Assembly: GCA_020850535.1 (NCBI GenBank)
Contig: JADZEM010000013.1
Span: 1 to 64,000 of the forward strand
Reading direction: 5' to 3'
DNA length: 64,000 nucleotides
Source: Chloroflexota bacterium
GTDB taxonomy: Bacteria; Chloroflexota; UBA6077; JACCZL01
Part shown: positions 58,450 to 59,265 of the stretch, piece after piece
Layout: each line of letters starts with the position of its first letter
How positions within the stretch are numbered: position 1 is the first letter of the stretch
Translations under genes and position numbers: made by a program
The notes under the pieces: generated by a model
Told to the model about the DNA's origin: nothing
What the model saw: only the letters and a program-made list of their open reading frames with translations
Databases searched by the model: none

Positions 58450-58585
58450 CGTAGAGTTGCTGCCTGTCTGACCTTCGCGCTGTTCCCGCGCCTACCATCG
58501 TCCTACCCGTCTCAGCCGGGCGACCCTGGAGCGGGCCAGCGCTCGGGCTGGGGTCGCCGGTTCCGCTCGCGCCACTGGAGGCTCT

Positions 58586-59134
58586 ATGCGCATTCCCGGC
58601 ATCGACCCTGCCCTGGCTGAAGGCCCGATCCTCGCCGTGCTCAAGGCCCAGGCCGAGCGGTGGGGCGCGCCGCTCATCAATCACCTGCTCTACGCTCGCC
58701 GCCCCTCGATCTTCCGTGGGGCACGGGCGATGTGGACAGGCCTCGACCAGTCTGGCCTGATCGACGGCAAGCTGCAGGCGCTGATCAATCGGCGGGTGGC
58801 CTACCTGAACGGCTGCGCCTTTTGACAGGATATCAATGCTGCCGTGGGCAGCACCCTGGGCATCCCTGACGCGAAGCTGCTGGCGCTTGTGGACTGGGAG
58901 TCAAACCCGCTCTTTGACGAGACGGAGCGGCTCGTCCTCGAATACGCCGACGCCATCACCTACACCGACCGCGACGTCTCGGACGAGCTGTTTGCGCGGG
59001 TCCGTGCCCGCTTCGACGAGGACAGCATCGTCGAGTTGACGGAGATCGTCGCCTGGGAGAACGCCTCCTCGAAGTTCAACCGGGCGCTGCGGGTGCCGTC
59101 GCAAGGCCTCTGGCGGCGGGCCGACCGAGGCTGA
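58586..59134 (+). CDS. CMD/AhpD-fold protein with in-frame UGA (candidate selenoprotein)
   Basis: The 182-codon frame encodes a carboxymuconolactone-decarboxylase/AhpD-fold protein. After LINRRVAYLNGCAF comes an in-frame TGA (58823-58825, codon 80), then QDINAAVGSTLG and an intact C-terminal half ending RALRVPSQGLWRRADRG. The family's redox motif is CxxC, so the TGA takes the place of the second Cys, giving CxxU with Cys77. A hairpin of 6 bp with a GUG loop begins 12 bases after the UGA, as in bacterial SECIS elements. GGAGG precedes the ATG. If not decoded as Sec, it would be a pseudogene. A selenocysteine machinery elsewhere is required. Confidence 0.65.
58823..58865 (+). promoter_or_regulatory. 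Candidate bacterial SECIS element
   Basis: UGA at 58823-58825 is followed by stem GCTGCC (58838-58843), loop GTG, and stem GGCAGC (58847-58852). The loop begins 19 bases after the UGA, inside the 16-37-base range described for bacterial SECIS, with the conserved G first in the loop. Outer GGAT and ATCC (58828-58831 and 58862-58865) may extend it. Confidence 0.55.
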
Positions 59135-59265
59135 GTAATCGGTCGGCCCGGGGCGGTGCACGCGTGCGCCTCGGTTGGGAGCGAACGGGCGCCCGGGATG
59201 CCACGCCGCCGCGTTCCTCAGGTACCCTTCTGCGTAGCAGTACGATCCCCGCTCGGGAGCTATCG

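Follow-up and report, generated by a model that had tools for sequence, protein, structure and literature searches.

An AhpD-fold gene with a probable CxxU selenocysteine site in a Chloroflexota genome

Introduction

AhpD-like selenoproteins with a CxxU motif were reported in 2005 by Zhang et al. from the Sargasso Sea (PMC1088965), and later catalogues and reviews list them under COG2128/YciW or TIGR01926 (PMC9312934, PMC13188914). AhpD chemistry needs a proton relay made of Glu, Cys, His/Tyr, Cys, and His (PMC3141380). For the RNA element that accompanies bacterial selenocysteine (Sec) codons, a 2026 review gives a model with a stem of 4–16 bp, a loop of 3–9 nt with G in the first two loop positions, a spacing of 16–37 nt, and a minimum free energy of −7.5 kcal/mol or lower (PMC13188914).

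Here, we analyzed a 64,000-nt stretch of contig JADZEM010000013.1 from a Chloroflexota bacterium (GenBank assembly GCA_020850535.1), called the window below, and in it a gene at 58586–59134. All features of this gene are on the forward strand. An earlier note on this DNA had proposed a selenoprotein in which an in-frame TGA sits at the position of the second redox Cys, the frame continues intact beyond it, and a SECIS-like hairpin with a G-first loop lies 19 bases downstream. It had cited a precedent for AhpD-like selenoproteins, which the 2005 report bears out, and had named absent Sec machinery, degraded downstream sequence in relatives, and a TGC or TGT misread at 58823–58825 as ways to be wrong. 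On all of these points the proposal held up in the analyses that follow.

Results

The gene starts with ATG at 58586. A Shine-Dalgarno-like GGAGG, read directly from the sequence, is found at 58577–58581, 4 bases upstream. Codon 80 is TGA (58823–58825), and the frame then stays open until the TGA at 59132–59134, the true stop; homologues terminate nearby with TAA, TAG, or TGA. With the internal TGA read as a residue, the gene encodes 182 amino acids of the AhpD-fold (CMD), YciW-related type, and the Pfam CMD profile (PF02627) matches residues 41–122, across the TGA, at 30.3 bits against a cut-off of 23. The TGA occupies the position of the second Cys of the AhpD/CMD CxxC motif, here C77-A-F-U80 (TGC GCC TTT TGA, 58814–58825), where 26 aligned homologues have an invariant Cys followed by Sec or Cys. 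Judging from sequence comparison, we are highly confident that this is an AhpD-fold gene whose codon-80 UGA would be decoded as Sec via SelB, tRNA-Sec, and a hairpin, giving a CxxU site; the gene's identity, its predicted Sec decoding, and its candidate SECIS element are well supported. The true stop is spanned by an inverted repeat, CGGGCCGACCG ... CGGTCGGCCCG (59117–59150), which has no T run after it and might serve as a terminator or as a stability element.

The protein matches NCBIfam NF053654 (GroundWater_YciW, “YciW-related (seleno)protein”) over its full length (residues 2–178) at 304.1 bits. This is 6 bits short of the curated cut-off of 310, so it is not formally assigned, whereas four relatives pass (L033 at 316.7 and L034 at 310.9 bits, as well as L036 and L037). 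A literature search on the subfamily name found no papers, and one on selenoproteins with NCBIfam found nothing relevant. The window protein shares CxxU, the AhpD fold, and a putative SECIS after the UGA with the AhpD-like selenoproteins of COG2128/YciW and TIGR01926. However, it matches TIGR01926 itself weakly (22.8 vs 81.8 bits), and it comes from Chloroflexota rather than from marine samples. That the gene is an additional member of the known AhpD-like CxxU type, with no new principle, is well supported.

Next, we considered the fold and the active site. An AlphaFold model made with 26 homologues has a pLDDT of 95.6, and Foldseek matches it to solved AhpD-like proteins with TM scores up to 0.88 (E value of 2.5e-6 at TM 0.85). 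Together with the PF02627 match, this places the protein in the CMD/AhpD-fold superfamily. PA0269 (2o4d/7xw1), Atu0492 (2gmy), and the debrominase Bmp8 (6ohi) share its fold and the position of its redox pair, but have Cys where the window protein has Sec. Furthermore, PA0269 Glu36, Tyr50, and His55 correspond to Ala, Phe, and Asn, so that the relay positions of the window protein read Ala, Cys, Phe, Sec, Asn, unlike strict-sense AhpD of the Mycobacterium tuberculosis type. Across its wider group, the Asn is common to members and the relay Glu is missing.

In the mechanism we propose, SelB and tRNA-Sec would decode the codon-80 UGA as selenocysteine, steered by the hairpin just 3′ of it, and the product would be a 182-residue, all-helical AhpD-fold oxidoreductase with a CxxU active site. 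The Sec selenolate would attack a peroxide, a disulfide, or another electrophile, Cys77 would resolve the Sec adduct by forming a selenenylsulfide, which would then be reduced by a cellular dithiol. The gene, the UGA column, the hairpin, the machinery, and the predicted fold come from comparison; we infer Sec insertion and the redox cycling of U80 with C77. The protein is most likely a thiol- or selenol-based oxidoreductase, for which the substrate, too, is something that we infer.

Sec decoding could be right and the enzyme still be a peroxidase or peroxiredoxin partner like strict-sense AhpD, as would fit the AhpD fold, the CxxU motif, and the weak peroxidase activity of PA0269, a related CxxC protein (PMC3141380). 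We regard this as a serious possibility, although the less probable one. In the window's clade, Ala and Asn stand in for the relay Glu and His, which makes peroxidase activity doubtful, whereas a second UGA clade keeps the full Glu-Cys-Tyr-Sec-His. An AhpD-like peroxidase function is therefore less probable than one would expect from the name of the family. No gene for a redox partner adjoins the window gene.

We then searched for homologues and read their codon at the position of codon 80. Named genome contigs yielded two Acidobacteriota genes with TGA in place (76 and 72% identity) and a Photobacterium gene with TGT; many more homologues turned up among 300 relatives of the genome that contains the window. 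The two Acidobacteriota genes, L033:4998-5531 and L034:4998-5528 of two assemblies, are the closest homologues. Among the 33 genes read, including the window gene, the column holds TGA in 24, TGC or TGT in nine, and nothing else, so the in-frame UGA aligns with Cys of homologues. Downstream frames of the homologues are intact past the TGA. In the six closest genes, dN is below dS on either side of the TGA wherever dS could be estimated, some dS values being saturated; for the window gene and L033, dN/dS values are 0.23/2.3 before and 0.15/1.31 after it. Constraint among these six genes is as strong after the TGA as before.

The genome, a draft assembly in 227 contigs (7.65 Mb; 96% complete), carries the complete Sec machinery, with profile scores over the cut-offs for selA (559.6 bits), selB (336.7), selD (388.5), and tRNA-Sec (65.2). 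SelA (463 aa) and SelB (632 aa), with one strong match each, are encoded by overlapping genes on contig C199 (L020:715-3992). SelB has GTPase and beta-barrel domains and, at the C terminus, winged-helix domains. The tRNA-Sec gene, with anticodon UCA, is on contig C29. The selD gene (contig C53, 26913–27836) has its own in-frame TGA near the start (L028:1531-1533), in a glycine-rich N-terminal stretch that reads HGAGUACK, and is likely a second selenoprotein gene of this genome. Among relatives carrying the TGA gene, 19 of 21 have SelA, and the two without it are 84 and 86% complete. However, all ten tested relatives with a gene free of internal stops have SelA as well, and its presence therefore does not separate UGA from non-UGA forms.

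These data bear on three other readings of the TGA. If UGA were read as a residue other than Sec, through a reassigned code or nonspecific readthrough, the frame would stay open whichever residue was inserted. We consider this very improbable, as Cys is the sole alternative in homologues, the Sec machinery is complete, and the gene itself terminates in TGA, and on these grounds a reassigned code was rejected; furthermore, the genome's other nine CMD matches have no internal TGA. A pseudogene, that is, an ordinary CxxC gene with a nonsense mutation, would account for a TGA that formally breaks the frame, but it is hardly credible given the strength of selection after the TGA and a conserved column in which TGA is shared by all five of the closest homologues, members of two phyla; we rejected it because of that column. 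Sequencing or assembly error, which would take a single base change (TGC to TGA) in a draft assembly, was rejected as equally far-fetched, since the TGA recurs in 23 other homologues with a hairpin, in some a weaker one, behind each.

The hairpin itself (TGCTGCC-GTG-GGCAGCA, 58837–58853) has 7 bp, a GUG loop at 58844–58846, and an energy of −10.5 kcal/mol. Eighteen bases separate the TGA from the loop, which starts at the 19th base. Stem, loop size, loop sequence (G, then U), spacing, and energy all fit the published model. However, the window has 1539 TGA triplets, of which 110 (7.1%) are followed by a hairpin that fits the model, and 2.8% by one of this strength; taken by itself, the hairpin is therefore weak evidence. 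An Rfam search of the region gave nothing relevant, with one sub-threshold chance match.

For comparison between genes, we adopted fixed hairpin scoring, because in some homologues the hairpin became indistinct when the 57 bases after the TGA were folded freely. The window hairpin is unusual when set against synonymous recodings of its peptide (p = 0.008). The UGA genes have a mean hairpin energy of −7.4 kcal/mol versus −3.4 for recodings of the same peptides, and p was 0.05 or less in 11 of the 24 UGA genes versus none of the nine Cys genes, which also lack any model-fitting hairpin. By the strict model, 14 of the 24 UGA homologues fall short; a weaker hairpin is still found at nearly the same place in those. 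Three stem pairs are changed on both sides in some members of the wider group to which the window gene belongs, and covariation exceeds that of all slid controls; in shuffle controls, the two measures based on counts of pairs or of types did not reach significance (46 and 84 of 500). The case for a SECIS element, as read from these alignments, rests on the conservation of the hairpin, its partial covariation, and its absence from Cys homologues; chance would not yield 24 homologues that share the TGA column and carry a hairpin in almost the same position.

In the same phylum, AhpD-like UGA genes also form a second, distant group (L058-L060, L062-L065). Its members retain the full proton relay and have a hairpin CUGCUUU-GGC-AAAGCAG with the loop 2 bases further on. 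In one member, the stem CUGCUUU/AAAGCAG is changed to CUGCCCU/AGGGCAG, and the loop is GGC in both.

Discussion

In a tree of the homologues, the closest neighbors of the window gene are the two Acidobacteriota genes (support 99/97), and three Chloroflexota genes join them in the enclosing group (95/93). G001 and G002, which belong to the same family as the window's genome, have a UGA gene that is more divergent, at 43 and 41% identity. With few named sequences in the tree, this suggests either that the gene moved between phyla or that it was lost elsewhere. We weighed contamination of the assembly, given that the nearest homologues come from Acidobacteriota. For a neighboring amine-oxidase gene of this contig, the best matches fall in the genome's own family (71 and 69%), which indicates that the contig belongs to the Chloroflexota lineage of the genome; an M20 peptidase gene gave distant matches only (42–43%). 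A bolder and rather unlikely proposal is that this CxxU clade, which keeps Cys-x-x-Sec and lacks the relay Glu and His, carries out a selenol-dependent, non-peroxide reaction on a novel substrate and has been passed between the phyla Chloroflexota and Acidobacteriota.

A gene caller that treats each TGA as a stop would report two pieces in place of the window gene, a stub of 79 residues and another open reading frame from 58844. The earlier note had expected the gene to extend the AhpD-like type to this lineage. That is the weaker part of its proposal, as the subfamily is already in NCBIfam and AhpD-like genes with a UGA are frequent among Chloroflexota. One clade with a stripped-down active site occurs in both Chloroflexota and Acidobacteriota.
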